Source: Humibacter ginsenosidimutans
GTDB lineage: Bacteria; Actinomycetota; Actinomycetes; Actinomycetales; Microbacteriaceae
DNA: 64,000 nucleotides
Assembly: GCF_007859675.1 (NCBI RefSeq)
Contig: NZ_CP042305.1
Span: forward strand, 4,119,639 to 4,183,638
Reading direction: 5' to 3'
Under the pieces are notes generated by a model. That model ran no database searches, was not told the DNA's origin, and was given only the letters and a program-made list of their open reading frames with translations. A program made the translations under genes and the position numbers. Positions within the stretch are counted from its first letter, which is position 1, and each line of letters starts with the position of its first letter. Shown here one piece after another: positions 39,006-58,161 of this stretch.

Positions 39006-40266
39006 ATGACGGGGAGGGGATCGGTGGCCTCAGCACAGCCCTTCGGGAGAAGCAGGGGCTACGTATACGCGTCGGCCCCGCGTCCCCCCCGAAGACGACT
39101 GGATCGCCGTCGTCGCCGACGCGTTCGTGGCACTCATCGAGTCCGGCCACGGCGACCGGGGCGTTGATGCCCTGACCAGGCTCGCGCAGGCCGGCCCGGT
39201 CTCGCTCGAAGAGATCGTGTCCGCCATCCCGGCGGGAACGGGCGGTGTCGACTCCTTCGCCGTGGCGCGTTACGACGAGGAGACGGCAGACGGGTGGCAG
39301 ATCACCGCCGTCGTGCGCGGTCGCGCCGTCGTCGACGTCTATTCGGTGGGCGGAGCCCGGCGGTTCACCTCCTCAGGCATGCAGCCTTGGCTGATCGCGA
39401 CGTTCCGCGACGTCGTCGCGGTGGAGCTCGGCGGCCCGGCGCGTCGCTTCGGCGCGATCTCGCATCGTGCCCCGAGCGCGCTCGCCATCGGGCAGGGCAG
39501 CGCTCATGCTGGCGGAGTGCTGTGGTCGGCGGTCGCAGCCGAGAGCGCTGGGTTCGAGACGGCCGACGGCGAAGCGGGCTACGTGCGCCCGCCCGCCTCC
39601 TTCGACGACGACACGGTTCGCCATGTGCGCGCACTGATCGGCGCTGCGCAGTCCGGGTCCGCTGCTTCACCGAGCATCGGCCCCGGCCCTGACGTCGACG
39701 TCGATGTCGAAAGAATCGAGCGCGCGCCGCGGCCGGGGTTCGACGACGTCACCGTCGAACGCACAGCGGCCGACGAGCGCGCGGTGGACGAGCATGTGGT
39801 CAGCGAGCATGCGGTCGACGAGGCCGGACGCACACCGACGCACGGCGATGCCCCCTCCCTGCCGAAGGATGCCCCTACCGGGCTCGCAGGCCCCGTGGAC
39901 GATGGGGAGGGGGCAGAGGCATCCGGAGTCGTTCTCGTCGCTGTCGCCGGTCATGACGCCGTGCCCCTCGAGAATCCCATCGTGGTCGGCAGAAAGCCTG
40001 TCGACAGGCGCCGATCGGGCAGTGCCTCCGTGCTCGTGACGGTGCCGTCTCCGCAGCACGTCGTCTCCGCCTCGCATGTGCGCATCGAACGCGCGGGGCG
40101 CGCCGTGGTCGTCACCGACCTGCGCTCCCGCAACGGCACCACGATCGCCCTCGCTGGCGGCGGCTCGCGGCGCCTCCGGCCCGGAGAATCGTTCGCCGTG
40201 CCGGGAGCCGCCACGATCGATATCGGCGACGGGACTATCATCGACATCACTCCGGCGGCACCGTGA
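39006..40266 (+). pseudogene. FHA-domain protein with one frameshift
   Basis: The ATG at 39006 opens a frame (MTGRGSVASAQPFGRSRGY) that leaves register at a run of seven C (39084-39090). From 39091 another frame continues with EDDWIAVVADAFVALIESG to 40266 and has no start of its own before 39127. Removing one C gives 419 residues: an N-terminal alpha/beta domain of unknown type (to about 225), an acidic linker, and a C-terminal FHA domain (VVGRKP, VSASHVRIERAG, VVTDLRSRNGTT), which binds phosphothreonine. A homopolymer error is likely. It precedes the PP2C and kinase genes, so it may read kinase output. Confidence 0.8.
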
Positions 40267-40333
40267 TCGAGCGTGCGTTCGGACAGCGACCCGTGATTCG
40301 CAGGCATGCAGATCCACCCGAGAGGATGCGCGC

Positions 40334-41161
40334 GTGACCCAGATCGGGCGAAGCAGCAAACGCCACCATGTGGCCGTGCCCGGCGGAGACGGCGCCCGCA
40401 TCACGCTGGCCTGGGCGGCATTGACGGACAAGGGTTACCGGCGCGCCGTCAACGAGGACAGCCTGATCGCCAAGTCGCCCATCTTCGCCGTGGCGGACGG
40501 GATGGGCGGGCACAGCGCAGGCGACATCGCGAGCGCCGCCGTCGTGAGCAGGCTGGCGGAACGGGTGTCCGCCTCGTTCGTCGACGAGCGCGCGATCGAC
40601 TCCGCTCTCCGAGCCGCCGTCGTCGACATGGAGAAGAGCGCGGGCCAGACCGATCTGGGCACGGGAACCACCGTGACGGGCTTCGCGCTGACCACGGCCG
40701 ACGGCGCTCCGAACTGGCTCGTGTTCAACATCGGCGACTCGCGCGTCTACGAACTCGAGGAGGGTGAGCTGCGGCAGCTCACCGTCGATCACTCCATCGT
40801 GCAGGAGCTTCTCGACGCGGGCGCGATCACTCCGGCGGAGGCCGAGGTGCATCCGCACTCGAACGTCATCACCCGTGCCGTCGGCTTCAACGAAGACCCC
40901 GTGCCCGACTTCGCGCTGGTCCCCATCGTGGCCGGAACGCGGCTGCTCGCCTGCTCCGACGGGTTGACGAAGGAGCTCACCGAGCACGGCATCCGGCATT
41001 TCCTCACCGTCGGCACCAGCCCGCTCGATGCCGCAGGGCAGCTGATGGACGCCGCACTCGGCAACGGCGGCCGCGACAACGTCACCGTCGTGGTCGTCGA
41101 CGTCCTCGAGACTCCCGAATCGCCGCGACCGAGCGGGCGCAGGGGCGCGAAGAAGCGCTGA
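40334..41161 (+). CDS. PP2C-family Ser/Thr protein phosphatase
   Basis: 275 residues, soluble. Metal-binding motifs: NEDSLIAKSPIFAVADGMGG (Asp at ADGMGG), NIGDSRVYEL, LACSDGLTKEL and GGRDNVTVVVV. The basic C-terminal tail is Arg/Lys-rich. GTG at 40334 with GAGAGGA upstream. Its neighbour is the transmembrane Ser/Thr kinase, so it is the likely counterpart that removes its phosphates. Unlike PstP of mycobacteria it has no membrane segment. Confidence 0.93.
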   Translation: MTQIGRSSKRHHVAVPGGDGARITLAWAALTDKGYRRAVNEDSLIAKSPIFAVADGMGGHSAGDIASAAVVSRLAERVSASFVDERAIDSALRAAVVDMEKSAGQTDLGTGTTVTGFALTTADGAPNWLVFNIGDSRVYELEEGELRQLTVDHSIVQELLDAGAITPAEAEVHPHSNVITRAVGFNEDPVPDFALVPIVAGTRLLACSDGLTKELTEHGIRHFLTVGTSPLDAAGQLMDAALGNGGRDNVTVVVVDVLETPESPRPSGRRGAKKR

Positions 41162-41211
41162 GCGCGAGATGGCCTCCGATGGGCGCGCGATCCGCGTCCT
41201 GACGCCCATGA

Positions 41212-41246
41212 CGCCCCCAGCTTGGGGCGCCTGAGCCGCCTACAAT
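41212..41246 (+). promoter_or_regulatory. Hairpin and -10 element before the kinase operon
   Basis: CGCCCC (41212-41217) and GGGGCG (41224-41229) form a stem after the phosphatase gene, followed by TACAAT (41241-41246), a good -10 that would give a leader of about 40 bases before the kinase ATG at 41295. A terminator plus a new promoter is the simplest reading, separating the FHA-PP2C genes from the kinase-led unit. Confidence 0.5.
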
Positions 41247-41294
41247 GGGGGCACGTTTCCCCGCCGGGGACGACAGTGCAGACGGGAGGCGCCG

Positions 41295-42685
<1,391 letters not shown>

Positions 42686-42689
<4 letters not shown>

Positions 42690-45600
42690 TCCGTTCGTTC
42701 GTTCGTGGCCACCGCACCGTGGCGTGGACGGTGATCGTCGGGGTCGTCGTCGTGGCGCTGACGGCGACCATCGCCATCGTCTCCGGCGGGTTCGTGCAAC
42801 AGCGCATGGTGCTCGGCGATGCCGCCGTGTGGGTGACGAACTCATCGAAGCAGCTGCTCGGCAGAGCCAACACCGCCATCGACTCGCTGAACTCGGCCGT
42901 CGTCGCGAGCGCCACGAGCGTCGACGTCGTGCAGTCGGGGTCGTCCGTGCTGCTCGTCGACCACAGCGACAACACCGTGTCTTCCGTCGACACCGCGACG
43001 GTGACGGCGGGCAAGCCGGTGGCGCTTCCGCCGCGCGATGCGCAGATCGGCATCGCGGGTTCGCGAGCCGTCATCGTGTCGGGCACGACCGGTCAGATCT
43101 GGCTCCTGCCGTTGAAGCAGCTCGAGACGTTCACCTCCGGCTCGACTCCCACCATCGATCTGGGCAGCCGCGTCATCACCTCGCTGAGCCCCGGCGGCAC
43201 GCTGTACGCGTACTCCAGCCAGGCGGCGACCATGTACCGCATCGACGCCGAGCACGGCGACCAGGTCGCCCAGACCTGGCATGTCGAGGCTCCCGGCAAG
43301 GCGAGTTCGCGCACGACACCGCTGCAGCTGACGTCGACGGGCGCGGGGTGGATGCTGTACGACGCGACATCCCGCACCCTGCGTTCCGAGTCGGGCACGC
43401 ACGTGCTCCCTGCCGCAGCGGGCGACGGGGGAGTCGTGGCGCAGCCGACCGACGCCGAAACAGCGCCCGTGGTCGCCGCGGATTCCGGCGTGTTCGTGCT
43501 CTCCGGCACTGCGTTCCGCCACACGGAGTCCGGCAGCTACGGAACGCCGGCCGCGCCCGTCTGGAACGATGGATGCCTCTACGCCGCCTGGAACACCGGC
43601 CAGACCTGGCGCTCCTGCACGGGTGGCGCCGCCGGTCGCCCGGGAACGCTCGCGTCGCTGCGCCCCGGCTCCGCCCTCACGTTCCGGGTCAACGACGGCA
43701 CCGTCGTGCTCAACGACACGGCGCACGGCACGACCTGGTCCGTGCAGCACGGCAACGCACTGATCGACAACTGGTCGGACTTCGCCAAGCCCGACGACAC
43801 GACGACGCAGTCGGAGGAGAACACCGAGGACACGCCGCCGAAGTACGAGAAGGCCGAGGTTCCGCCGGTCGCCGTCGACGACGAGTTCGGTGCGCGCCCT
43901 GGCACGACGAGCCCGTTGCCCGTGCTGCTCAACGACTACGACGCGAACGGCGACGTGCTGGTCATCGATTCCTTCACGCCCATCCCGCAAGAAGAGGGGC
44001 GCATCGCCCGCACCGCCGACGACCAGCAGCTGCAGATCACCTTGCCTGCCGACGCGAGCGGGCGCATCAGGTTCGAATACACGATCAGCGACGGCCGCGG
44101 CGGCGAGGCGCAGGCGCAGGTCACGGTGACGGTGCGCACCCCGGACGAGAACTCGCCGCCCGTGCAGGTGCGGGCGACGAAGGCGACGGTCGCCGCGGGC
44201 GGGCGGGTCTCGACGCAGGTGCTCGGGGACTGGTACGACCCGGACGGCGATCCGATCTACCTCGTCTCCGCGACCACGGCATCGCCCGACAGCGCGTCGT
44301 CGACCCCGGAGGGCACCGTGGTGTTCACCGGCTCGGGCTCCGGCACGGGCATGCGCAACGTCGCTCTCACAGTGTCAGACGGGAGGGCCGAAGCGCACGG
44401 CACGCTGGCCGTCACGGTGCGGCGCCCCACCGAGGTGCCGATCATCGTCGACCCGTTCGTGGCGACCGTGACGGCGGGCGACCAGATCACGATCTCGCCC
44501 TTGGCGCACGTGCGCGGCGGCGTGGGAACGGTGCGGCTGGCATCCGTTCCCGACAAGCCGGACGTCACGCTGCAGCCCAACCTCGACGACGGCACGTTCA
44601 CGTTCTCCTCCGACACCCCGGGCAGCTACTACGTCGACTACACCGTCACCGATGGCCAGAGCACCGCGACCGGTGAGGTGCGCGTGGTGGTGAGCGCGCC
44701 GCAGGACGCGGGCGACGCCCCGGTCACGGTGCCGCACAACGCGTTCATCGAGCAGCAGAGCTCCGGTCAGGTCGACGTGACGGCCACCGACTACGACCCG
44801 GCCGGCGGGGTGCTGCTGGTCACGGGCGTGGCCGCGCCGAAGCAATCGGACGGCGTGAGCGTGCAGGTGCTGGAGCAGCACATTCTGCGGGTGACGCTGA
44901 CCCGGCCGTTGAGCGGTCCTGTCACGTTCGGCTACACCGTGAGCAACGGCACGGCGAGCACGAACGGCACCGTGCGCGTCGTGGAGATCCCGCGGCCGGC
45001 GGTGCGGCAGCCGCCCGTGGCTGATCCCGATTCGGCCACCGTGCGCGTCGGCGACGCCATCGACATCCCCGTGCTCGACAACGACTCGCAGGCCGACGGC
45101 GACGACCTGACCTTGGACCCGGTGTTGCCGACACCGCTGCCGAAGGGCGCTGGACTGCTGTTCGCCTCCGGGAACGTGTTGCGCTACCTCGCGCCGGACA
45201 AGCCGGGCAACTACACGGCGGTGTACCGGGTCGACGACGCAGACGGGCAGTGGGCGACGGCGCAGGTGAGCATCGCGGTGCGCGAGATCGACGTGGCATC
45301 CAACAGGGCTCCCGTACCGCAGACCGTCACCGCGCGCGTGCTGGCGGGGAACACCGTGCGCATCCCCATCCCGCTGTCGGGCATCGACCCTGACGGTGAC
45401 TCGGTGAAGCTCGTCGGCCAGTCGACCAATCCGCAGAAGGGGGCCGTGACGTCGGTCGGTCCGAACTGGATCGACTACCAGGCCGGCGACTACTCGGCGG
45501 GAACCGACACGTTCGACTACACCGTCGTCGACGCGCTGGGTGCGCACGCCGACGGAGTGGTGCGCATCGGCATCGCGCCGCAGGACGACACGGCACGCAA

Positions 45601-48478
45601 CCCCGTCGCCGTCGAGGACCAGGTGGCGGTGCGGCCGGGGCGCACCGTCTCGGTGCAGGTGCTCGCGAACGATTCCGACCCCGACGGGGGAGCCCTGCAC
45701 ATCGTGTCGGTGCAGCGCACCTCGACGCAGATCGCCAAGGCGACGTTCACGAGCAAGATCGTCAAGGTCGTCGCGCCCAAGAAGGAGGGCAGATACGGCT
45801 TCATCTACACGATTCAGAACGACGCAGGCGGAACGAGCTCCAACTTCCTCACCGTGGTCGTGCGTGCAGATGCACCTTTGTCCAGGCCGGTCGTACAGGA
45901 CACCGTGGTGTCGCTCAGCGACATCCTCGGCAAGCAGCAGATCACCGTCGATCCGCTCGCGAACGTGTTCTTCGCCGATGGGCCGGTGAGCAGCCTCAAG
46001 CTCTCGCTGGTCGACGGGTTCGGCGACACGGCGCACGTGACCTCCGACGGCCGCGTGCGCGTGCGGGTGCTGGCGAAGTCGCAGATCATCCCGTTCAAGG
46101 TCACGCATCCCGACGATGCGTCGATCTCGTCGTTCGGGTTCATCTGGGTTCCGGGGCTCGACGATGCCCTTCCTCAGCTCAAGCCCGGCGCGCCGAAGCT
46201 CACGGTGCAGAGCGAGAAGACGCTCGTCATCGACCTCGACAAGTACGTCGTGGCGGCGGGAGGCAAATCCGTGCGGCTCACGGACTCGTCGCACGTGCAC
46301 GCCACGCATGCCGACGGCTCGTCGCTGGTGCGCAACAGCCACACCCTCGTCTACACGAGCGCCTCGCGGTATTTCGGGCCGGCATCCATCTCGTTCGAAG
46401 TGACGGACGGCAGCTCGGCCAACGATCCGCGCGGACACATCGCCACGCTCGTGCTGCCGATCACCGTCACGGCCCGCGACAACCAGCCGCCGACCTTCAC
46501 CGGCGCCCAAGTCGATTTCGAGCCGGGTCAGCAGAAGACGCTCGACCTGCTGAAGCTCACCAGGTATCCGTACGCGCGCGATCAGGGCGAACTGCAGTAC
46601 AGCGTGCTCGATCCTCAGCCTCAGGGTGCATCCGTCTCGCTGCAGGGGAGCAGCCTGACCGTGAAGGTCTCCGATCAGACCGGCAAGGGCACGCATCTCA
46701 GCGTGATCGTCGGCGTGCGGGATGCCGTCAACACCGGCAAGTCGGGACGGATCGATATCACGGTCGTTCCCTCGACGAGGCCGCTCGCCGTTCCGCAACC
46801 CGATCAGGTGGTCGCCAGGCGCGGGGTGACGACCACCGTCAACGTGCTGGCGAACGACGCGGCCACCAACCCCTTCCCCTCGACGCCGCTGCGCGTGATC
46901 GCGGTGCGCGGGTTGGCGAACGGCGCGCTGCCGCAGGGCGTCAGCGTGACGCCGAGCGCCGATCGCTCCCATCTCACGGTGAGCGTGGCGGCGAACGCGG
47001 TGCCCGCCGACACGACCCTGCAGTACGAGGTCGCCGATGCGACGAACGACCCTGCCCGCTACACCTGGGGAACCGTCACGATCTCCGTCGAAGACCGGCC
47101 GGAACCGGTCTCCAACGTGAGCATCGCCGGCGTCGCCGACCATCAGCTGACCGTCGCGTGGGATGCCGGCTCGGACAACAATTCCGCGATCAAGAACTAC
47201 GTCGTCTCGCTCGTCGCCTCCGGTCAGGTCGTCGGCACGACCACGTGCGACGCCACGACGTGCACCGTGCCCACCCCTGGCAACGGGCCGCAGAACGCCG
47301 TGACCGTGCAGGTGGTGGCGGTGAACGGCATCGGAAGGTCCGATCCCGTCAGCTACCCCGACGCCGTGTGGTCGAACGTCGTTCCCGGCGCGCCGACCGA
47401 CGTGACGGCGACACGCGGAGACCAGAGCATCCGGGTCAGCTGGGATCCGCCGAAGTCCGGTGGCGGGAGCGTCGTCACCGCGTACCGGGTGTCGGTGGGC
47501 ACGGCGACGGTCACCGTCGACGGCGGCACGACTTCCGCCAAGATCACCGGACTCACCAACGGGCAGCAGGTGCAGGCGACGGTCACCTCGATGAACGACT
47601 TCTACGGGGTGTCGCCGGCGTGGAACTCGGCCGTGTCGAATGCCGTCACGCCCGCGGGGGCGCCGATCTGGATATCCACGCCCTCCGTGACACCGAGAAA
47701 TGACGCGAACGGAACCGTGGACATCGGTTGGGGGTCGGCCGCGAACGCCAACGGATCGGCGATCACCTCGTATTCGGTCTCGTGCGGTTCGCAGACGGTG
47801 ACCACGACGGGCACCTCGACCAGCTGCACCTTGCCGACGGGACAGTCCACGACTGTCACCGTCACCGCCTCGAACGACGTGGGGAGCTCTACGTCGCAGC
47901 CTGTCTCGGCGACGCCGCCGGCAGCTCCGCAGACTCCCACGAGGGTCACCGTCTACGTCGCCGATCCCGGCGATTCCCAGAACGGCCGCTTCGTGCCGAC
48001 CTTCCAGGGCGTCTCACCGACCCCGTCGACGAGCGGCGGCGGTTCGGTCTCGTATTCCGTCAAGATCAACGGCGGAGATCCGCAGCAGCTGGGCATCGGC
48101 GACCATCTGCCCGTGCAGTCGAACCAGTACGGGGTGCAGCTCTCCGTGTCGGTGCAGGTGACGGTCACCTATCCCAACGGCGCGACTCTGTCCAGCGGCT
48201 GGTCCGACCCGGTCTCGGCAGGCATGGCGGTGGATGCCACGCTCGGCGGCCTGCAATACACCCCTGCCGCGAACGGCAACGGTGGCACCTTCAGCTGGAC
48301 GTCGGCCCCCGGAACGGCATCGACCACACCGGCCGGCCCGTACAACTCGGTCTCGATCACGTGCAACGGCACGCAGGCGACCGGCAACACCTGCACCACG
48401 AACTCGACGAACCCCACGCTGGCCGTGCGCGTCGGAGCAAACGGACGCACCTACGAGATGGACTACCCAGGGCAATGA
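42686..48478 (+). CDS. Giant membrane-anchored Ig/cadherin-like and fibronectin III repeat protein
   Basis: 1930 residues. A short cytoplasmic head and one membrane helix (about 12-35, TVIVGVVVVALTATIAIVSG) put the rest outside. About 40-370 is a beta-rich region with propeller-like repeats (VLLVDHSDNTVSSVDTATV). An acidic linker follows. From about 392 come some eleven modules of 95-100 residues with the pattern VAVDDEF..RPG...PVLLNDYD, repeated near 774, 971 and 1363 (VLDNDSQADGD, VLANDSDPDGG, VLANDAATNP). From about 1470 there are three fibronectin III modules and two more beta domains. No sorting signal. Overlaps both neighbours by four bases. Confidence 0.88.
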
Positions 48479-49536
48479 CCGAAGAGCACGAGCACGACAC
48501 CCAAGACCGCAGCACGGGTCGGATGGCCGAGCCGCCGGCCCCGGCCGAGCCGCCGCGCCCCTCCGCCGTGCTCACGGACGACCAGGCCGCCTGGTTCCAG
48601 AGCATGGTGGACGCCATCGTCGCCAACGTCGAACGCGTGCTGCTCGGCAAGACGCACGTCATCAGGCTCGCCGTGACCGCGCTGCTCAGCGAGGGCCACC
48701 TCTTGCTGGAAGACGTGCCGGGAACGGGCAAGACCTCGTTGGCGAGGGCGCTCGCCGAGAGCATCTCGGGAACGAGCAGCCGCATCCAGTTCACCCCCGA
48801 CCTGCTGCCAGGCGACGTCACGGGGGTCGGCGTCTACGACCAGCGCAAAGGCGACTTCGAGTTCCATCCCGGCCCGGTCTTCGCCAACGTGGTGCTCGCC
48901 GACGAGATCAACAGGGCCAGCCCGAAGACGCAGGCCGCGCTCCTGGAGGTCATGGAGGAGCGCCAGGTCAGCGTCGACGGCGTGACCCATCGCCTGGCCC
49001 CGCCGTTCATGGTGATCGCCACGCAGAACCCCGTCGAGCAGGCGGGAACGTACCGCCTGCCGGAGGCGCAGCTCGACCGGTTCATCATGAAGGCATCCAT
49101 CGGCTACCCGGACCACGCGTCGATGGTGCGCATTCTCGAGGGCGCGGACCACCCGGCGCACGACACCGTGCTTCCCACCGTCGTGATGGGCGACATGGTC
49201 ACCACGATGACCAAGCTGGCCAGGTCGGTGCATGTCGATCCGTCGATCAACGACTACGTGTCGCGGCTGGTGGATGCCACGCGCAGCGCCGACGAGGTGC
49301 GTCTCGGCGTCAGCGTGCGCGGCGGCCTCGCCCTCATCCGCACGGCCAAGACGTACGCCGCGGCGCTGGGACGCGCCTACGTCGTGCCCGACGACGTGAA
49401 GACGCTGGCGGAGCCCGTGCTGGCTCACCGGATCGTGCTCGATCCCGAGGCCGAGTTCGACGGCGTCACCGCGGGCAGCATCGTCGCGAACGTCGTGCTG
49501 GAGACACCGCCGCCGCTGGACGGGACGCTGGTGTGA
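48475..49536 (+). CDS. MoxR-family AAA+ ATPase
   Basis: 353 residues. Walker A VPGTGKTSLA at about 82-91, Walker B VVLADEINRASPKTQ, sensor 1 VIATQNPVEQAGTY, arginine/lid segment GVSVRGGLALIR. An acidic N-terminal extension of about 40 residues precedes the core. MoxR proteins act as chaperones or metal-insertion factors, often for VWA or DUF58 partners. The DUF58 gene follows with a four-base overlap. Inferred role: assembly or activation of the surface machinery encoded around it. Confidence 0.94.
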   Translation: MTEEHEHDTQDRSTGRMAEPPAPAEPPRPSAVLTDDQAAWFQSMVDAIVANVERVLLGKTHVIRLAVTALLSEGHLLLEDVPGTGKTSLARALAESISGTSSRIQFTPDLLPGDVTGVGVYDQRKGDFEFHPGPVFANVVLADEINRASPKTQAALLEVMEERQVSVDGVTHRLAPPFMVIATQNPVEQAGTYRLPEAQLDRFIMKASIGYPDHASMVRILEGADHPAHDTVLPTVVMGDMVTTMTKLARSVHVDPSINDYVSRLVDATRSADEVRLGVSVRGGLALIRTAKTYAAALGRAYVVPDDVKTLAEPVLAHRIVLDPEAEFDGVTAGSIVANVVLETPPPLDGTLV

Positions 49537-50876
49537 GCTTCGACGCGCACTCCGGCAGCACCGGGATCGACAACGCTCGAACCCGGATCGTCGGCGCGCG
49601 CGATGACCGACTCGCCGATGCCGTGGTCGCGGTGGTGCGCTTCTGGCGCCGATTCACGCTGTGGTGCTCCCGCGCGATCCACTGGGTCACGCAGGTCACC
49701 ACCGTGACGGGCGTGTGCGTCGCCGCCGTGACGATCGCCGCCTTCATCGCCGGCTATGTCGCAGGCTGGTCGGAGGCCCTCGTCGTGGCGTGGGTGGGGG
49801 CGGCGCTGTTCGTGCTGGCCGTCGGCTACCTGCTGGGATCCGTCGCCTATCGCGCGACGGTGCACCTGCCGACGCCGCGCGTCGTCGTCGGCGGCTCGGC
49901 ACCGGTTGACGTGGAGGTCTCGAACCCCACAAGACGCGGCCTGCTGGCGGCACGCATCGAGGTGCCGGTCGGGGACGGCGTCGCGGAGTTCGCCGTGCCG
50001 GGGCTGCGCCCCGGCACCAGGTTCCGCGATGTCTTTCAGGTGCCGACGACGCACAGGGGAGTCGTGATCGTCGGCCCGGTGCGCTCGGTGCGCGCCGACC
50101 CGGTCGGGCTCCTGCGCCGCGAGACCGACTGGCAGCAGACCGCCGAGCTCTTCGTGCACCCGCAGACCGTCACGCTGCCGAGCATGAGCACGGGACTGGT
50201 GCGCGACCTCGAAGGCAACACCACGAGAGACCTCACGACGAGCGACATGTCCTTCCACGCCTTGCGCGAGTACGCGCGCGGCGACGAGCGCAGGCACATC
50301 CATTGGCGCAGCACGGCGAAGACCGGCGCGTTCATGGTGCGTCAGTACGAGCAGACCAGACGCAGCAACCTCCTCATCGCGCTCTCGACGGCGGAGGGCG
50401 ACTTCGCATCGAACGACGAGTTCGAGCTCGCGGTCAGCGCGGCGGCGTCCCTCGGCGTGCGCGCGGTGCGCGACGATCGCAGCGTGTCGTTCGTGGTCGG
50501 GGAGCGCACGCCCGATTTCGCCAAGACGCCCGTGCTCGATGTGCGCAGACTCGACGCGGTCACCCCGACCCGTCTGCTCGACGCGCTGTGCCGCATCGAG
50601 ATGGCGGGGTCAGCCCTGCACATCACCGACGTGGCCAAGGTGTCCGCCGACACCACTCCCGACCTGTCGATCGTGTTCCTCGTCTGCGGTTCCGACGTGA
50701 CGACCGCGCACCTGAGGCAGGCCGCGACGATGTTCCAGCTCGGTATCGCCGTCGTGGTGGTGCGATGCGCGCCGGGCAGCGCCCCTGGGCTACGTCGGGT
50801 GGGCGACGTGAGCATCCTCACCATCGGATACCTCGAAGATCTGCGCTCGAGCCTGGCCAACTGGAAGGCCGTATGA
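49533..50876 (+). CDS. DUF58 membrane protein, MoxR partner
   Basis: 447 residues. Two membrane helices near residues 50-105 (TVTGVCVAAVTIAAFIAGYV and LVVAWVGAALFVLAVGYLLG). The DUF58 hallmark is LREYARGDERRHIHWRSTA at about 244-262, followed by a VWA-like fold (NLLIALSTAEGDFA). Usual partner of MoxR and transglutaminase proteins in many bacteria. GTG start inside the MoxR stop and ATG overlap into the transglutaminase gene. Confidence 0.93.
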   Translation: MSFDAHSGSTGIDNARTRIVGARDDRLADAVVAVVRFWRRFTLWCSRAIHWVTQVTTVTGVCVAAVTIAAFIAGYVAGWSEALVVAWVGAALFVLAVGYLLGSVAYRATVHLPTPRVVVGGSAPVDVEVSNPTRRGLLAARIEVPVGDGVAEFAVPGLRPGTRFRDVFQVPTTHRGVVIVGPVRSVRADPVGLLRRETDWQQTAELFVHPQTVTLPSMSTGLVRDLEGNTTRDLTTSDMSFHALREYARGDERRHIHWRSTAKTGAFMVRQYEQTRRSNLLIALSTAEGDFASNDEFELAVSAAASLGVRAVRDDRSVSFVVGERTPDFAKTPVLDVRRLDAVTPTRLLDALCRIEMAGSALHITDVAKVSADTTPDLSIVFLVCGSDVTTAHLRQAATMFQLGIAVVVVRCAPGSAPGLRRVGDVSILTIGYLEDLRSSLANWKAV

Positions 50877-53203
50877 GCGTCGGGCTTCGTCACCGCATCG
50901 CCGCCACGGGGTACCTGCTGGTGCTCATGACGTGCGCCGTCGTCGCGTTCTGGCCGATCTATCGCGACTCGGACTTCGTCGCGATGGCGATCGGCGCACT
51001 GGTCGCGGGCGCCGCGGTCGCCGTCGTCGGTGCGATCCGGCGATGGAGCACCCTGGTCACCGCGTGCGTCGCGGCGGGCGCGTTCCTCGTGCTCGGCGTT
51101 CCGCTGGCCGTGCCGGGAGAGACGATGTGGCGCGTGGCGCCCACCTGGCAGGGGTTTCTCGACTTCCTCTCCGCACTCGCGCTGAGCTGGCGCCAGCTCG
51201 TGACGATCAGTGTTCCCGTCGGGTCGTATCAGGCGCTGCTGACGCCGCCCTACGTGCTGGCGTTCGCTGGAACGCTGGTCTCGATCACGGTGGCGCTTCG
51301 AGCGAGGATGCCCGAGCTCGCCCTCGTCCCTCCGCTGGCCGTGTTCACCATGGCGATCGTTCTCGGCTCCGACACGACGGCGACGCCGCTGCCCTTGGTG
51401 GTCGCGATCGCCGCGCTCAGCGTCGGCTGGCTCGCGTGGATGCGTCGTCGCCGCCGCGTCTCCCGCCTGGTGTCCCTCGACAGCGCGCACGCCGACGGTG
51501 TGCGCCGCGGCGAACGCTCGTTCGCCGCGGCGCGGTCTGTCACGGTCGCGACGGTGGCGGTCGCCGTCGCCGTCGCCGCCGGGGTCGCCGTGACGACAGT
51601 GCTGCCCACGACGGCCGCGCGCACCGTCGCGCGCACGACCGCCATGCCGCCGTTCAACCCGCGCGACTATGCGAGCCCGCTGTCCGGATTCCGCTCCTAC
51701 CTGCAACCCGCGACCGCCCACCGGGCGCTGTTCACCGTGACCGGCGCGGGAAGACTGCGCACGATCCGCCTGGCCACGCTCGACACGTACAACGGCGTCG
51801 TGTACTCGGTGGGCACGCAGCCGGGCGACTCGGGGGCGTTCGCGCGGGTGCCGGACACCCTTGCGCTGCCGGATCGGGACGGGGACGGCGCGGGGCGGAG
51901 CATCCAGACGCTCGAGGTCTCGATCGACGGGCTCTCCGGTCCGTGGCTGCCGACGTTCGGCGATCTGCAGACGATCTCCTTCGGCGGTGACGATCCGGGA
52001 GCACTTCGCGACGGCTTCTACTACAACTCGACGACGGCGACGATGGCCGACATCGCCGCGGTGCGGGCAGGCGATTCGTACAGTGTCACCGCGCAGACCA
52101 CGCCGTCGCTCACCATCGCGCAGCTGGCGACGGCGAAGCCGGGCGACGCTGCGCTGCCGGCGGTCTCCGTCATGCCCGACGATCTCGACGACACCGTGCA
52201 CCGCTACGAGGGCGACGCCGACACCCCGGGCAAGAAGCTCTCCGCCGTGCTGCTCAAGCTCACACAGAACGGCTACATCAGCCACGGCATCGGTTCGGAG
52301 CCGACAAGCCTCTCCGGGCACGGCGCCGACCGCATCACCTCGCTGCTCACCGATCAGCCGATGATCGGCGACCAGGAGCAGTACGCGGTGACGGCGGCGC
52401 TGATGGCGAGGCGACTCGGATTTCCGGCTCGCGTGGTGCTCGGCTTCACGGTCCCGCAGAACAGCGACAACGGTTCGACGACGATCACGGGGTCGGACAT
52501 CACGGCGTGGATCCAGGTGCAGACCGCGAAGCAGGGCTGGGTCGACGTGGATCCGAATCCGCAGGTGCGGCCCATCCCAGAGAAGAAGCCGGAGCGTCCG
52601 AAGCAGATCTCCCGACCGCAGTCCGTCGTCGACCCGCCGAAGGACACCAGCGACCGGGATCAGAACCCGCCGCCGCAGTCGCACGTGAAGCAGGAGAAGA
52701 CCGACCAGCTGCCGCTGTGGCTGAGCATCCTGCTGACGGTGCTCACCGTGCTCGGGTGGACGCTGTCGGTCGCGGCGCTGGTCGTCGCGCCGTTCCTCGC
52801 CGTGATCGCCGCCAAGTGGCGCAGGCGCCGAGGGCGCCGGTCGTCGCGTGCCGGTCCTCGGGTGCGCATCTCGGGTGCGTGGCGCGAGTTCGCGGACTCC
52901 GCCGTCGATCACGGCTACTCGCCGCACGCCTCCGCCACGCGCAGCGAGGCCGCGCAGGCGGTGGGCGGTCCCCGGTCGCTGCTGCTCGCCTCGGTGGCCG
53001 ACCGGTCGGCGTTCGGACGGGCCGAGCCCACCGAGGCCGACGCCGACCAGGTGTGGCGCGCCGTGGAGGAGCTGCGTCGGGACCTCGACGCGCGCACCAC
53101 CAGATGGGGTCGGCTGCGTGCGCGCGTCTCCCTCCGGTCGCTGGGCGGCTACCGTGGAGGGAGAACCGAAAAGGGTTCGTCATCGACAGGGAGTGAGCGG
53201 TGA
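50873..53203 (+). CDS. Membrane transglutaminase-fold protein with lost catalytic residues
   Basis: 776 residues, TgpA-like layout: about six N-terminal membrane helices, a periplasmic domain with a transglutaminase core (about 440-570), a Pro/Lys linker, one more helix (about 622-645, LLTVLTVLGWTLSVAALVVA) and a cytoplasmic tail. In active enzymes the core reads GDCEQ...HAW...VDP. Here it reads GDQEQYAVTAALMARRLGFP (Gln 501 in place of Cys) and ITAWIQVQ (Thr 544 in place of His); only Asp 560 in WVDVDPNP remains. A non-enzymatic role, such as peptide or amine binding, is inferred. Overlaps both neighbours by four bases. Confidence 0.92.
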   Translation: MSVGLRHRIAATGYLLVLMTCAVVAFWPIYRDSDFVAMAIGALVAGAAVAVVGAIRRWSTLVTACVAAGAFLVLGVPLAVPGETMWRVAPTWQGFLDFLSALALSWRQLVTISVPVGSYQALLTPPYVLAFAGTLVSITVALRARMPELALVPPLAVFTMAIVLGSDTTATPLPLVVAIAALSVGWLAWMRRRRRVSRLVSLDSAHADGVRRGERSFAAARSVTVATVAVAVAVAAGVAVTTVLPTTAARTVARTTAMPPFNPRDYASPLSGFRSYLQPATAHRALFTVTGAGRLRTIRLATLDTYNGVVYSVGTQPGDSGAFARVPDTLALPDRDGDGAGRSIQTLEVSIDGLSGPWLPTFGDLQTISFGGDDPGALRDGFYYNSTTATMADIAAVRAGDSYSVTAQTTPSLTIAQLATAKPGDAALPAVSVMPDDLDDTVHRYEGDADTPGKKLSAVLLKLTQNGYISHGIGSEPTSLSGHGADRITSLLTDQPMIGDQEQYAVTAALMARRLGFPARVVLGFTVPQNSDNGSTTITGSDITAWIQVQTAKQGWVDVDPNPQVRPIPEKKPERPKQISRPQSVVDPPKDTSDRDQNPPPQSHVKQEKTDQLPLWLSILLTVLTVLGWTLSVAALVVAPFLAVIAAKWRRRRGRRSSRAGPRVRISGAWREFADSAVDHGYSPHASATRSEAAQAVGGPRSLLLASVADRSAFGRAEPTEADADQVWRAVEELRRDLDARTTRWGRLRARVSLRSLGGYRGGRTEKGSSSTGSER

Positions 53204-53904
53204 ACTGTGCGGCATGCGGCGCCGCGCTTCCGGCGGGCGCCATGTTCTGCGGGCGGTGTGGAAGAGCCGTGAACGCCACGCAGGTGCCGAAGGCCCGCGT
53301 GGCCGATCCACGACCCGGCGACACGACCATCCTGAACCCTGGAACGACCTCGGAACGGCCGACAGGAGACATCGGCACCGCGAGCGCCGGTGCAGACGAT
53401 TCGGCCGACGCAGCGTCGCAGGTCGAGGATGCCGGCGGCAGCGTCGCGAGACCGGAGTCGCTGATCGAGACGCGCCCCATCAGCGTCGTGAGCTCGATCA
53501 CCGGCCACGCCGACGACGGCTCCACCGCAGGCGCCCCGGCATCGGGATCGGGCTGCGACGGCGCCGCCTCTCAACCGCCCGTGCCCTACGTGCTCTCGTT
53601 CTCGACGGGAGAGCGCATCGTCGTCGTCGGATCCGGCCTGCTCGGGCGCAGACCGTACGTGCAGCCGGGCGAGAGCTTCGACCAGCTCGTGTCCATCGCC
53701 GACCACGAGCGCTCCGTCTCGAAGACGCACCTCGAGTTCGGGGTCGAGGTCGGGGACCTGTGGATCTGCGACAGGTACTCGGCCAACGGAACCGTCATCA
53801 TCCCGCCCGCCGGTGCCCCGCATCGGCTGGAACCGGGGAGACGGTACAGGGTTCCGCGAGCCGGCCGCGTCGAGATCGGGGATCGCTGGTTCGACGTGCG
53901 CTGA
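53200..53904 (+). CDS. Zinc-ribbon and FHA-domain protein
   Basis: 234 residues. N-terminal CxxC-x(10)-CxxC zinc ribbon (NCAACGAALPAGAMFCGRCG), a long disordered Ala/Ser/Asp linker with a TTILNPGTTSE segment (possible phosphothreonine site), and a C-terminal FHA domain (about 130-230: VVGSGLLGRRP, RSVSKTHLEF, RYSANGTVI). FHA domains bind phosphothreonine, so it is a likely target or reader for the kinase in this locus. GTG start overlaps the previous stop. Confidence 0.9.
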   Translation: MNCAACGAALPAGAMFCGRCGRAVNATQVPKARVADPRPGDTTILNPGTTSERPTGDIGTASAGADDSADAASQVEDAGGSVARPESLIETRPISVVSSITGHADDGSTAGAPASGSGCDGAASQPPVPYVLSFSTGERIVVVGSGLLGRRPYVQPGESFDQLVSIADHERSVSKTHLEFGVEVGDLWICDRYSANGTVIIPPAGAPHRLEPGRRYRVPRAGRVEIGDRWFDVR

Positions 53905-54006
53905 CGGCATCCGCCTCTGCGTCCCCAGGAGCGCCGATGGACGGGTCATGCCACCCCAGCGCTCTTGCCGCAGCACGACCCGGGTGAGTTGCGTTGCAGT
54001 GGAGGC

Positions 54007-56949
54007 ATGACAGTTCTCGGCCGTTCCCCGCACGACGCCGTCGTGTTGCCCAGGCGTGCACCGGCCCCAGCACGTGGGACATTCCCCGTGCTCGCCGTGC
54101 TCGCACCTGTCGCCGGCGCGGCCGTGCTCTATGCGGTGATCGGGTCGCCGATGATGCTGGCCTTCGCGGCGCTCAGCCCGGTCATCGCGATCGCCGGCGC
54201 TGTCGACGGACGCATCGCGGCCAGGAGGAGACGCCGTGCGGATGCCCGCACTCACGCCGCGGAGAGCGCCGTCTTTCTCGACTCAGTCTCCTCCGCGCAC
54301 CGTGCCGAGCGTGCGGCACTCGACGCCGAACATCCGTCCGCCGCCGCCCTCCTCGCCGACGCATCGCATCGCTCGCGGCGGTGGACCGCTCCAAGCGCAC
54401 GCCTCGCGGTCGTGCGCATCGGCACCGGAACGACGGCCAGCAGGCTGGTCGTGTCGGGTTCGGCTGAGTCCGAGGAAGACCTCGAGCTCGTCGCGGCCGC
54501 GCGCTCGCTCGCCGATGCGCCGATACTGGGTGATCCCGCGGACGGCATCGGCGTCGTCGGCCCGCTGCCTGCGGCGAGAGCTCTGGTGCGCGGCCTGGTC
54601 GTCCAGCTCGCGCACGCACATCCACCCGGCGCACTCGCGCTCGACGCGCCAGACGCCGAGGCCTATCGCTGGCTCGCCGGCTACCCGCACGCCGGGCGCG
54701 CGCATGCCGCGCCCCTGGTCGTGCACGTCAGCGACACGGGTGAGGACCCGGCAGGGGGAAAGCTGCGGGCCGATGCGCAGGCATCGATGGCCCGTCGGAA
54801 CGAGCCGTTGGGCGAAGCGATCCTCGCCGTGGCGCCGAGCGTGGAGACGCTGCCGAGCGGATGTCGTCTCGTCGTGCGGGTGGAGGCCGACGGTGATCTG
54901 AGGATGCTCTCGGCAGCGGCAGAACAGACGGGTGCTCGAGCCGAGCTGATCACGGCGCAACAGGCCTTGGGATTCGGCACGGCGCTCGCCGTGGAGGCCG
55001 CAGCCAGAGGCATCGCGGCAGTGTCACCGCTTGCGGAGCACGTTGAACTCGCCGAGCTGGGCGCCGCGGTCGACGCGGATCGGACCGCGGCCGCGGACGC
55101 GGCGCTGCCCGCAACGTTCTGCGTGTCCGACGCCGGGCCGCTCGTCATCGATCTCGTCGCGTCGGGGCCGCACGCGGTCGTCACCGGAACGACGGGCAGC
55201 GGCAAGAGCGAATTGCTCACCTCCTGGGTGCTGGGCATCGCATCGGCGGCGAGCCCCCTGGTCGTGAACTTTCTGCTCGTCGACTTCAAGGGCGGCACCG
55301 CCTTTCAGCGGCTGGCGGCGCTGCCGCACACGGTCGGCGTCGTCACCGACCTCGGCCACGGCGAGGCGTTGCGGGCGCTGAAGAGCCTGCGCGCCGAGAT
55401 CCGACGCCGGGAAGCGGAGCTGGCGCGACGCGCGGCATCCGACCTGCGCGATGCGCCCGACGCGTTCCCGCGGCTCGTCATCGTCGTGGATGAGGCGGCG
55501 GCGATGCTCGCCGCATTCCCCGATCTCGCCGCTCTCTTCGTCGACATCGCCGCACGGGGCCGCGCGCTCGGCATGCATCTCGTCCTCGCCACGCAGCGCG
55601 CGACCGGCGTGCTCGGCGACGCGCTCATCGCGAACTGCGCACTGCGCATCTCACTGCGACTGTCCTCCGAGGCGGACAGCGCTGCATTGCTCGGAACGGA
55701 TGCCGCAGCGCGACTTCCGCACGGCATCCCCGGCAGGCTCGTCGTCAGCCGCGACGGAACGACGGTGATCGCGCAGGCGGCGTCGGCGCGCGACAGCGAC
55801 ATCGAGTCGGTCGTCAGCAGGTTCGCTGGAGGGGTCGTGCCGCGTGCTCCGTGGCTGCCGGCGCTGCCCTCGCGCATCCCGCTCTCGGCCTTCGGCGCAT
55901 CGCCTCCGGATTCCGTGGTGATCGGCGCCGGGGACGACCCGGACCGCCAGGTGCAGGAGGGCATCGTCTACCGCCCGACCGCCGCGCACCTGCTCGTGCA
56001 GGGTGCGCGCGGCTCGGGAAAGTCGACGGTTCTCGCCGCAGTCGGGGCACAGTGGACGGGCGAAGTCGTCGTCGTGCCGGCTGACGTCGAGGGAGCGTGG
56101 GATGCGCTGTCAACGGCAGCGGCACGCCCCGCGTGCGACGACCCCGCGCCGTGCCTCGTGCTCCTCGACGACGTCGACGCTCTGCTCGAGCGGTTCGACG
56201 ACGAGCACCGCGACGCCGTCGTGGAGCGCATCCGCGCTCTGCTCATCGACGGTCCACGCGCCGGCACGGCACTCGTCTGCACGGCTTCCTCATTGCCCAG
56301 CGCACTGCGCGCCGTCGCAGGCCGTTTCGGAGAGCGGCTCGTGCTGCGTCAGTCCGACCGCCAGGAGCACGTGCTCGCCGGCGCGCCCGCCGAACTCTAC
56401 GACGCGGATGCGCCGCCCGGCCGGGGCGTGTGGCGCGAGCGCGCGTGCCAGGTCATGCTCGTGCCGCCGCCTCCGCTGCCAATCCGGTTCCCGCCGCCCG
56501 AACTCGAGTTCGAGGCGGGGACGGTCACCGTCGTCGTGACGCAGAACCCGGAGGCGGTGCTCACCGGGTTCGCTGCAGCAGACCTCGACGTGGAGGTCAT
56601 CGATGTCGGGGCGATCGGCACCGATTCACCAGGGGTCGGCGACTCCACCAGCCCCGTCGGCGTCGTGGCCGATCGCCCCGACCACGACGCGGGCACGCAC
56701 TCCAGCGGGGGCGTGAGCGTGCGAACGACGGCCCGCGCCGTGGTGCTGGTCGGCGACGCCGAGACGTGGCAGAGCCGGTTCGGTCTGCTCGCCAGAGTGC
56801 GCTCGCGAGCGGTCATGGTGTTCGACGGATGCCCGCTCCCGCACCTGCGAGCCCTGCTGCACACCAGGGAGCTCCCGCCCACGACGGTCCCCGGGCATGT
56901 GCTCGTGCGCGAACCGAGCGGGGTCTTCAGTCGGGCGCGGATGCCGTGA
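54007..56949 (+). CDS. EccC/FtsK-like double ATPase, type VII secretion-type motor
   Basis: 980 residues. Two N-terminal membrane helices ([20 protein letters not shown] and [20 protein letters not shown]), an EccC-like middle ([20 protein letters not shown], then [10 protein letters not shown]), and two P-loop domains. First: Walker [10 protein letters not shown] (from residue 394), Walker [12 protein letters not shown]. Second: Walker [10 protein letters not shown] (from 666), Walker [13 protein letters not shown]. This layout matches EccC/EssC better than chromosome-segregating FtsK, which has four N-terminal helices and one ATPase domain. EccC proteins often have three ATPase domains; here two are clear. 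Start uncertain: GGAGG is only one base before ATG 54007. No WXG100 gene lies in the window. Confidence 0.88.
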
Positions 56950-56951
56950 GC

Positions 56952-58067
56952 TCAGCCCAGAACCTCCGCCAAGGGCGTCGGCGTCAGGCCGTTCGCCTCT
57001 GCCACGCCAGCGTTCGTGACCCGGCCGTCGACCACGTTGAGTCCCAGCGCGAGCGCCGGGTCCGCGCGGAGCGCTGCCTGCCATCCGTTGTTCGCGATCG
57101 CGCGCAGGTAGGGCAGCGTCGCGTTCGTGAGCGCGTGCGTCGAGGTGTGCGGAACCGCGCCCGGCATGTTCGCGACGCAGTAGAAGATGGTGTCGTGCAC
57201 CCTGAAGGTCGGGGCATCGTGGGTCGTCGGGTGCGAGTCCTCGAAGCATCCGCCCTGGTCGACGGCGATGTCCACGAGCACGCTGCCGGGGCGCATCTTC
57301 GCCACCATGTCGTTGCGCACCAGCTTCGGCGCCTTGGCGCCCGGCACCAGCACGGATCCGACCACGAGGTCGGCGTCGAGCACTGCGCGCTCGACCTCGA
57401 AGGTGGTCGACGCGATGGTCTTGATGCGGCCCGCGTACAGGGCGTCGAGCTCGCGCAGCCGTCCGACGTTGGTGTCGAGCACCGTCACATCGGCGCCGAG
57501 ACCCACCGCCACCTGTGCGGCGTTGGAGCCCGCGACGCCGCCGCCGAGCACGACCACCTTGGCGGGGTAGGTTCCGGGAACCCCCGGCACCAGCAGCCCG
57601 GAACCGCCCTGCGGCTTGAGCAGGGTGTTCGCACCGACGATCGGCGCGAGCCTGCCGGCCACCTCGCTCATCGGGGCCAGCAGCGGCAGCGAGCGATCGG
57701 CGCGCTGCACGGTCTCGTAGGCGATGGCCGTGACACCGGCGTCGGCCAGTGCCTTCGTCAGAGCCGGCTCGGCGGCCAGGTGCAGATACGCGAACAGCAC
57801 GAGGCCGTCCCTGAAGTAGCCGAACTCCCGCTCGATCGGCTCTTTCACCTTGAGCAGAAGCTCTGCGCTCGCCCAGGTGGCGGCCGCGTCGGGCTCGATG
57901 ATCGCGCCAGCATCGGAGTAGGCGGAGTCGGGGATCGACGAGCCGTCGCCTGCACCGCGCTCCACATGCACTTCGTGCCCGTTGCCGACCAGATCGTGCA
58001 CACCGGCCGGAGTGATCGCCACCCGGTACTCGTTGTTCTTGATCTCGCGTGGAATGGAGATTCTCAT
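56952..58067 (-). CDS. ald: Alanine dehydrogenase
   Basis: Reversible NAD-dependent deamination of L-alanine to pyruvate. 371 residues, exactly the family length. Start [20 protein letters not shown]; the catalytic Lys in LLLKVKEPI and His in [10 protein letters not shown]; the NAD fold [17 protein letters not shown]. The substrate and hinge segment [14 protein letters not shown] is typical. GGAAG precedes the ATG at 58067. Convergent with the EccC-like gene, two bases apart. Confidence 0.97.
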
Positions 58068-58161
58068 CGTCTTCCGTTTCTTTCTTCTCACGGACCGTCC
58101 TCGGCCCGCCCGCGGTCTCCTTTGACCGCGAAGACTGATGGCGCGCTGCGCCGTTATCCGC

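Follow-up and report, generated by a model that had tools for sequence, protein, structure and literature searches.

Nine consecutive genes of Humibacter ginsenosidimutans on balance probably encode a kinase-gated envelope or export system that derives from type VII secretion systems (T7SSs) and represents, within an operon family widespread among actinomycetes, the branch with a short motor. The fuller form of this family looks like a T7SS locus whose motor is of EssC type and bears FHA and which includes WXG100 proteins, because sister operons run into an FHA-bearing EssC-type ATPase that often lies beside a WXG100 gene. The genes occupy part of a 64,000-nucleotide stretch of DNA (the window), and a first-pass annotation had regarded their assembly as one of no known function. 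However, the set matches the PFNA operon published in Bifidobacterium longum, and T7SS variants that combine a kinase, a phosphatase, FHA proteins and a giant Ig protein have also been published already. An older secretion or envelope system under kinase control may thus include the supposed bifidobacterial immune sensor as one of its branches.

Gene content and active sites of the locus

An open-frame check and Pfam searches bear out the annotated gene order, with nine intact frames on the + strand and overlaps at five of the eight gene junctions. Pfam matches exceed the cut-offs for all of the proteins but the eighth, whose matches to zinc-ribbon and FHA models fall just below them. The genes are as follows.

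39127..40266, + strand: FHA1, 379 aa, with a C-terminal FHA domain (Pfam FHA, 7.3e-05, above cut-off)
40334..41161, + strand: PP2C-type protein phosphatase, start GTG 40334 (Pfam PP2C_2, 4.6e-13)
41295..42689, + strand: transmembrane Ser/Thr kinase, 464 aa (Pfam Pkinase, 7.4e-36)
42662..48478, + strand: giant N-terminally anchored protein, 1938 aa (Pfam Big_9/fn3, hydropathy, AlphaFold, homology to Bifidobacterium FN3)
48475..49536, + strand: MoxR-type AAA+ ATPase, 353 aa (Pfam AAA_3, 2.3e-63)
49533..50876, + strand: DUF58 protein, 447 aa, with two hydrophobic segments (Pfam DUF58, 2.5e-10; hydropathy)
50873..53203, + strand: TgpA-like membrane protein with a transglutaminase-fold domain, 776 aa (Pfam TgpA_N, 3.2e-14; Transglut_core, 1.5e-13)
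53200..53904, + strand: zinc-ribbon/FHA protein, 234 aa (Pfam Zn_Ribbon_1, 3.6e-05, and FHA, 0.003, both just below cut-off)
54007..56949, + strand: short EccC/EssC-type membrane ATPase without FHA, 980 aa, start ATG 54007 (Pfam FtsK_SpoIIIE, 2.1e-29)

Three details of the annotation need adjustment. An FHA gene does open the locus, but the ATG at 39006 from which it had been drawn lies in a different frame, and the most likely start, although uncertain, is GTG 39127. Likewise, the fourth gene does encode a giant Ig/FnIII protein, but it measures 1938 aa, or 1919 if translation begins at a later start (P0121), and not 1930. For the motor, the start is ATG 54007 and the length 980 aa. By simple hydropathy, the giant has a membrane anchor at residues 17–47 as its sole hydrophobic segment, and no such segment was found at the C-terminus. 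An AlphaFold model and a fold search of residues 1–408 predict a beta-propeller at residues ~53–370, after which Pfam places Big_9/cadherin-like repeats and then FnIII repeats. The kinase also has a single hydrophobic segment (342–379, hydropathy), followed by an external C-terminal domain that is FnIII-like by eye.

Residues needed for phospho-signalling are retained across aligned homologues: the phosphothreonine-pocket SxxH of FHA1 in 89 of 91 rows, the metal-binding Asp motifs of PP2C in 90–91 of 91, and the Lys, HRD and DFG of the kinase in 96–98 of 99. The zinc-ribbon/FHA protein keeps SxxH in 109 of 110 rows, and its zinc-ribbon Cys residues are present in just 57–60 of the 110. Walker motifs of MoxR are kept in 142–143 of 144 rows, and the first ATPase site of the motor is conserved among its aligned homologues. 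In contrast to these sites, the catalytic Cys of the transglutaminase-fold protein (TGM) is absent in all 105 aligned homologues, where the corresponding column holds D (54), A (24), G (9), Q (8), E (7) and S (3). This conserved loss argues against the operon's TGM being an enzyme.

An operon family with and without a linked motor

Similarity to the window giant was used to retrieve 79 named loci, a procedure that biases the sample towards Microbacteriaceae. Sixty of these have at least 7 kb to the left and at least 8.5 kb to the right of the giant, and the other 19 lie on too little contig. A kinase gene precedes the giant in 33 of the 60 (hereafter window-type loci), among which 24 have the complete set of nine families on the same strand, including one (L121) where a long FHA-bearing ATPase replaces the short motor; a further two miss just a detectable zinc-ribbon/FHA gene. 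Thus, the nine-gene grouping is not due to chance, and the scattering among close relatives that the annotation had named as evidence against its proposal is not observed. With a motor profile trained on window-type loci, the operon ends with the motor gene in 26 of the 33, and none above threshold is found in 7, which counts against an export function.

Sister operons in other families carry separate FHA proteins plus an FHA domain on the motor. Among 16 chosen named genomes, 12 encode a long ATPase 11.5–14.7 kb downstream of a giant and on its strand, and operon genes fill this interval wherever that stretch was read. All six long sister ATPases scanned bear an FHA domain. The annotation had stressed that FHA proteins act in trans here, unlike in EssC; the separate FHA proteins are indeed present, but the sister motors have FHA domains of their own as well. 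Three of the 16 genomes (G571, G574 and G580) have no adjacent long ATPase, and in G576 the neighbouring ATPase is EccC-like and on the opposite strand. The ATPase of L210 (Arthrobacter sp. zg-Y238) was rejected as an EssC neighbour, being on the opposite strand and grouping with EccC; accordingly, neither the 12 genomes nor the second tree include this locus.

A search for WXG100 genes linked to the operon elsewhere, which the annotation had proposed, proved productive. Such a gene adjoins the sister ATPase in 5 of 20 loci with a match above the Pfam cut-off and in a further 5 with a match below it; in 6 of the 20, our own filter found no WXG100-like gene within 1.8 kb. The locus L132/L168, from another order, has nearly the gene order of the window, its motor slot being occupied by an FHA-bearing ATPase together with a WXG100 gene (7e-16).

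No WXG100 gene was found beside 24 short motors, most of these loci ending less than 2 kb past the motor, and Pfam detects none among the nine proteins of the window, whose genome carries WXG100 genes elsewhere. Of 18 named window-type genomes, 7 have no clear EccC/EssC-family match other than the short motor, with Agromyces bauzanensis, Planctomonas and Cryobacterium psychrotolerans as candidate examples, and each of the 7 has one WXG100 gene. Six of the seven, like the window genome, carry it as a conserved orphan next to groEL; in the seventh (L224) it escaped gene calling, but the match coordinates likewise fall next to groEL. The same position was seen in 5 of 5 genomes from the family to which the bifidobacterial loci belong. 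WXG100 genes are present in 275 of 297 sampled genomes of the order and absent in 22. The giant occurs in just 3 of the 20 listed among these 22, so most giant-less genomes carry WXG100 too. We therefore rejected this groEL-linked orphan, common without the giant, as cargo of the short motor; its co-occurrence with the motor is no evidence of pairing.

The bifidobacterial PFNA operon may be a branch of the same family without a linked motor. Its published core is pkb2-fn3-aaa-duf58-tgm, joined in some species by prpC, a hypothetical gene and fha, and the account describes the operon as confined to Bifidobacterium. However, Pfam matches and coordinates give the same core order (kinase, FnIII giant, MoxR, DUF58, transglutaminase-fold protein) for the window, as they do for the bifidobacteria-like locus L153 and for L159, where MoxR lies inside the open frame of the giant. 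The window giant aligns with a Bifidobacterium FN3 protein (B. saguini, P0244) at 30% identity over ~1600 positions (E 3e-155). For B. longum, of which the PFNA papers used strain GT15, an FN3 giant of 1994 aa is reported, as is phosphorylation of the operon's MoxR by the kinase Pkb2. The open-access literature searched yielded neither a link between PFNA and T7SSs nor experiments on these genes outside Bifidobacterium.

These parallels raise the possibility that the locus is a signalling and surface-adhesion operon as described for PFNA, wherein the kinase, phosphatase and FHA proteins control the MoxR-assisted assembly and display of the giant, and the ATPase is an optional helper or passenger with no part in type VII export. 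The bifidobacterial operons read have no linked motor, as is true of the motor-less window-type loci; no WXG100 neighbour was found for the 24 short motors; and the PFNA work reports cytokine binding and adhesion. We nevertheless regard this alternative as less likely, given that a motor closes the operon in most window-type loci and that other families encode FHA-bearing EssC proteins within or adjoining the operon, frequently together with WXG100. Furthermore, the giant is widespread in the order and is found in mostly environmental genera, and host immunity therefore cannot be its general role.

Affinities of the motor

Sequence comparisons place the motor with EccC/EssC-type ATPases along its length, as the annotation had suggested. 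It scores 206 bits against the NCBIfam model for EccCa and 52 against that for FtsK, with values below the curated EccC/EssC cut-offs, and a PDB profile search returned 276 bits for EccC, 248 for YukB and 99 for FtsK. The best fold match is EccC (4nh0), the membrane and stalk region is EccC-type (matching EccC3, EccC5 and YukB), and the protein also contains a second P-loop domain. Pfam finds no FHA match in the window motor, which thus lacks the FHA-on-ATPase trait of T7SSb, T7SSd and T7SSe.

In the T7SSd subtype of Actinomycetota (Garrett et al. 2024, PMC11217815), a membrane kinase and an FHA-bearing ATPase occur together with WXG100 and an Ig giant, and the window could simply be a member whose extra genes had been overlooked. 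We consider this improbable. The window ATPase has no FHA domain, and WXG100 was not found nearby. The sole hydrophobic segment of the window giant is N-terminal, whereas the T7SSd giant TsdI is described as having a Sec signal and a C-terminal transmembrane helix. In addition, MoxR, fibronectin and transglutaminase are absent from the main text of PMC11217815. The comparison with TsdI and TsdC draws on the published description of T7SSd.

Clustering with plain FtsK had been named as a result that would speak against an EccC-like motor. Our best trees of the first ATPase domain group the short motors with FHA-bearing EssC, but the AU test, run on this domain alone, is also compatible with their grouping with FtsK (p 0.40). 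Although that test leaves room, and although sources name relatives of the motor 'DNA segregation ATPase FtsK/SpoIIIE', an FtsK-like DNA translocase whose place in the operon is incidental is highly improbable, given whole-protein profiles that score EccC far above FtsK, the fold, the EccC-type membrane and stalk region and the second P-loop domain, and the separate FtsK present in the genomes examined.

The kinase and motor also match superfamily members (kinase and FtsK/HerA) in a defence library, including MADS mad6 (2.4e-50) and mad8 (4.1e-29). The giant, TGM and MoxR have no match in this library, and filing the locus as a defence (MADS) system was dropped.

Proposed working and relation to known systems

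From the gene content, homology, linkage, retained or lost active-site residues and predicted folds of the window, we infer a phospho-circuit, complex formation and export. The transmembrane kinase would sense the envelope and phosphorylate threonine residues of other proteins from the operon; these phosphothreonines would be bound by FHA1 and the zinc-ribbon/FHA protein, which would thereby assemble or gate a membrane complex, and PP2C would reset the circuit. MoxR, DUF58 and the pseudo-transglutaminase may form a chaperone module in the membrane, with the giant as client, and assemble or remodel both this giant and the complex. Held by its N-terminal anchor, the giant could extend a propeller-Ig-FnIII rod through the wall, as has been proposed for TsdI and EsaA of other T7SSs, and the EccC-type ATPase would power export or assembly.

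We tentatively propose, at somewhat less than even chances, that the family is a further T7SS subtype of Actinomycetota, distinguished by an active kinase, FHA gating, an N-terminally anchored wall-spanning giant and a MoxR-DUF58-pseudo-transglutaminase module. The window would then be a minimal branch whose shortened motor may have shed its own FHA domain and linked WXG100, and PFNA would be a motor-less relative. If so, PFNA is one branch of a widespread envelope or secretion system of mostly environmental actinobacteria, and cytokine binding would consequently be a secondary use. An active-looking kinase, a phosphatase, intact FHA pockets and a motor would share one operon, such that phospho-control of T7SSs, raised as an open question in PMC11217815, becomes directly testable in such operons.

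Each known system resembles the window in part. PFNA has the five core genes in the same order, a homologous giant of similar size and also phosphatase and FHA genes; the window adds the EccC/EssC-type motor and a second FHA protein, has its FHA and phosphatase genes upstream and belongs to a host other than Bifidobacterium. MoxR-DUF58-transglutaminase modules place the same three gene types side by side, here overlapping, and the mycobacterial moxR operon has been noted as PFNA-like (PMC12067865). However, in the window family no aligned homologue of the transglutaminase-fold member has the catalytic Cys, and the window module is flanked by a giant client on one side and a secretion-type motor on the other. 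T7SSb (EssC/EssB, Bacillota) and T7SSa (EccB–E, Mycobacteriales) share the EccC/EssC-family ATPase, and the pairing of EssC FHA domains with the EssB pseudokinase in T7SSb recalls the kinase and FHA proteins of the window. In contrast, the window kinase has intact motifs, and EccB, EccD, EccE, mycosin, EsaA, EssA, EssB and YukD gave no Pfam match in the nine proteins (E 0.01).

Compared with T7SSd, the window pairs an FHA-less ATPase with an N-terminally anchored giant, has no linked WXG100, and adds PP2C, separate FHA proteins and the MoxR-DUF58-pseudo-transglutaminase module. Yet both come from Actinomycetota and share a membrane Ser/Thr kinase, an EssC-type ATPase and a giant Ig-repeat envelope protein, and the sister operons extend this likeness to an FHA domain on the ATPase and to WXG100.

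Arrangement of the operon in the window and in relatives

The window forms the terminal 64 kb of a 4.18-Mb single-contig genome. Most of the nine operon genes were called by open frames and third-position GC, and the remainder by translation. Together with Pfam, these calls bear out the nine genes and the order proposed in the first-pass annotation.

39127–56949 (+), operon of nine genes: FHA1, PP2C, kinase, giant, MoxR, DUF58, TGM, zinc-ribbon/FHA, motor
56952–58310 (−), convergent alanine dehydrogenase downstream of the motor

Pfam matches support the FHA, PP2C, Pkinase, Big_9/fn3 (giant), MoxR-type AAA_3, DUF58, TgpA_N/Transglut_core (TGM, a TgpA-like membrane protein with a transglutaminase fold) and FtsK_SpoIIIE (motor) assignments; for the eighth gene, zinc-ribbon and FHA were both matched slightly below the cut-offs. 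Genes overlap at five of the eight junctions; the gaps separate FHA1 from PP2C, PP2C from the kinase, and zinc-ribbon/FHA from the motor. Two ABC transporters lie upstream, and the nearest named proteins are from Humibacter (72% for the giant, 58% for the motor), which makes a member of the Microbacteriaceae close to Humibacter the probable source. Antisense frames resembling alanine dehydrogenase, judged by eye, also follow the motor in several loci in which the kinase precedes the giant.

Synteny was assessed in 79 named loci selected by giant similarity (best 80 of 435), a sample biased towards close relatives. The census covered the 60 loci with at least 7 kb to the left and at least 8.5 kb to the right of the giant. 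The kinase lies upstream of the giant in 33 of these, and 24 of the 33 carry all nine families on one strand, so that the families co-occur rather than being scattered in these relatives. In two more of the 33 the zinc-ribbon/FHA gene is the only one not detected, and seven lack a motor above threshold, including two Frigoribacterium loci (L069 and L076) with weak motor fragments in another profile search. In the remaining 27 loci the giant leads the operon and is followed, where the stretch permits, by MoxR-DUF58-TGM-zinc-ribbon/FHA-PP2C-FHA1-kinase; the full MoxR-DUF58-TGM trio is missing from the fetched stretch in six. The order of PP2C and FHA1 is reversed in some loci.

The contig carrying the window (C1) holds two extra copies of the operon in tandem (C1:905000–939900; L123 and L124), in which a profile search detected no motor. 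Tandem giants (two, three or more copies) occur in Arthrobacter, Paenarthrobacter and Isoptericola luteus (L108, L110, L115 and others), and three fetched stretches from one genome (L163, L182 and L183; G393, family f7) carry the giant gene but none of the other operon genes.

Relationship to the PFNA operon

The assembly had been described as having no known function. Its core, however, is the published bifidobacterial PFNA operon, described as pkb2, fn3, aaa-atp (MoxR), duf58 and tgm, to which some species add prpC, a hypothetical gene and fha (PMC8430577, PMC6803598, PMC10688814). One of these accounts states that PFNA occurs in bifidobacteria only (PMC10688814), and another paper notes a mycobacterial moxR operon as resembling PFNA (PMC12067865).

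Locus L159 has the order kinase, giant, DUF58, TGM, with MoxR inside the open frame of the giant. When this giant, from the same order as the window, was used as a query, the named proteins among the matches listed were from Bifidobacterium. L153, from the same family as L159, reads kinase-giant-MoxR-DUF58-TGM-PP2C. The window giant aligns with a B. saguini protein at 30% identity (477/1603 positions, E 3e-155). Searched with a profile of the giant, 184 of 297 genomes sampled from the order gave a match at E ≤ 1e-15, 12 of these being weaker than 1e-60; in the class, 37 of 296 genomes did so at E ≤ 1e-20, with some matches confined to the FnIII region. The restriction to bifidobacteria therefore fails for this gene set: the window operon contains the PFNA genes outside Bifidobacterium, and by gene content and homology it belongs with PFNA.

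Conserved residues and the giant protein

Active-site residues were compared across rows that each stand for a locus, some of them overlapping within the same genome. The kinase Lys, HRD and DFG are kept in 96–98 of 99 rows, the PP2C Asp motifs in 90–91 of 91, the SxxH of FHA1 in 89/91 and that of zinc-ribbon/FHA in 109/110, and the MoxR Walker motifs in 142–143 of 144. The motor keeps its Walker A1 Lys and B1 Asp-Glu in 30/30 rows and the second P-loop Lys in 19 of about 28. The catalytic Cys column of TGM is non-Cys in 105/105 rows (D 54, A 24, G 9, Q 8, E 7, S 3; one gap), with Ser in the three bifidobacteria-like rows and Gln in the window, and no Cys lies within six columns in these 105 rows; His is retained in 44/105 and Asp in 79/105.

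By hydropathy, the giant has a single hydrophobic segment (17–47) and none at the C terminus. Residues ~53–370 are predicted with high confidence to form an all-beta, propeller-like domain (408-residue model, mean pLDDT 80), and its top fold matches are propellers, including one of YVTN type from an archaeal surface layer (E 3.3e-9) and BamB. Pfam places Ig-like and FnIII repeats after this domain.

The motor, its sister operons and type VII secretion

The window motor is a 980-residue protein with a hydrophobic N-terminal region. It scores best against EccC-type proteins in a PDB profile search (T. curvata EccC 276 bits, YukB 248, EccC5 194, FtsK 99) and in NCBIfam (EccCa 206, EssC 202, FtsK 52 bits), where the EccC and EssC scores fall under the curated cut-offs. 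Its AlphaFold model (mean pLDDT 82, pTM 0.54) has EccC 4nh0 as the top fold match (E 5.5e-32). Trees built on the first ATPase domain unite the 14 short motors used in a single clade (100/100), next to a clade of FHA-bearing EssC proteins (98/88 in a later tree). Clustering with plain FtsK had been named as grounds for abandoning the proposed reading of the locus; the best trees place FtsK, EccC and EssC outside both clades, but an AU test on this domain does not reject a grouping of short motors with FtsK (p 0.40), and the argument is therefore carried by the whole-protein evidence.

Apart from FtsK and P-loop-only matches, the short motor is the sole clear EccC/EssC-family match in 7 of 18 named genomes with the window-type order (Aurantimicrobium, two Cryobacterium, two Planctomonas, Agromyces bauzanensis and Naasia); the other 11 encode an additional long ATPase of ~1500–1720 residues.

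In many giant-first operons the kinase is followed by a gene of ~250–290 residues and then an ATPase of ~1490. The intervening gene is conserved at ~270 residues (L184 6640–7479, L194 5148–5951) and looks FHA plus winged-helix-like by eye; the one protein scanned, from L194, has no Pfam match. Sixteen named genomes were chosen, mostly from giant-first loci but with the window order in one (L094). A long ATPase on the strand of the giant was present in 12, at 11.5–14.7 kb from the giant end to its first FtsK domain. No adjacent same-strand long ATPase was found in G571, G574 or G580, and in G576 the neighbouring ATPase is EccC-like and on the opposite strand. FHA proteins had been proposed to flank the motor in trans, which fits the FHA-free window motor, whereas all six long ATPases scanned (L194, L012, L121, L178, L184, L168) carry FHA together with FtsK_SpoIIIE.

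The suggested search for WXG100 genes linked elsewhere succeeded in several of these sister operons. Within 1.8 kb downstream of 20 long ATPases, WXG100 is above the Pfam cut-off at five (L168, L184, L185, L197, and L193 by coordinates), below it at five (L121, L194, L195, L203, L207) and recognizable by eye only at one (L178); three have another small helical protein (L205, L206, L012), and neither was found for six. In two loci whose order resembles that of the window, the place of the motor is taken by a long FHA-ATPase and WXG100. One is L132/L168 (G092, from another order), where PP2C and FHA1 have changed places; in the other, L121 from a Microbacteriaceae MAG, zinc-ribbon/FHA stands at the front. 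The sister operons have the appearance of type VII loci. A separate T7SS-like locus in the window's own genome (L012, C1:2110000–2129000) has a 1527-residue FHA-EssC frame, a WXG100 gene and a weak T7SS_signal protein, and is without a giant. EssC-like ATPases also occur on Rothia terrae plasmid p1 (L214; kinase and RHS gene nearby) and Curtobacterium plasmid pTCL (L215; WXG100 gene nearby), both outside the motor clades of the operon.

One WXG100 gene adjoining groEL is conserved across Microbacteriaceae and in genomes of the bifidobacteria-like kind, whether or not the operon is present; the five bifidobacteria-like stretches have a second MoxR-DUF58 pair ~2–4 kb away.

L013 7421–7855 (own genome, C1:1755576), groEL-linked WXG100
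L218–L223 and L233–L237, further groEL-WXG100 stretches

Linkage, homology, folds and residue conservation of the operon are shown here; it may operate a phospho-circuit and may function in export. The weak point of this mechanism is the missing cargo: no WXG100 lies beside short motors at 24 loci, and the groEL-linked WXG100 is too general in distribution for assignment to the motor.

No paper treating PFNA together with type VII secretion was found in the literature searched. Garrett et al. 2024 (PMC11217815) describe the T7SSd subtype in Actinomycetota, including Olsenella and Bifidobacterium: it combines a kinase, WXG100, an ATPase with FHA, and an Ig giant that carries a transmembrane segment at its C terminus. 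No mention of MoxR, fibronectin or transglutaminase was found in that paper's main text. Going by its motor and sister loci, the window operon is derived from a T7SS, but it is without the linked WXG100 and the FHA on the ATPase that feature in described subtypes.
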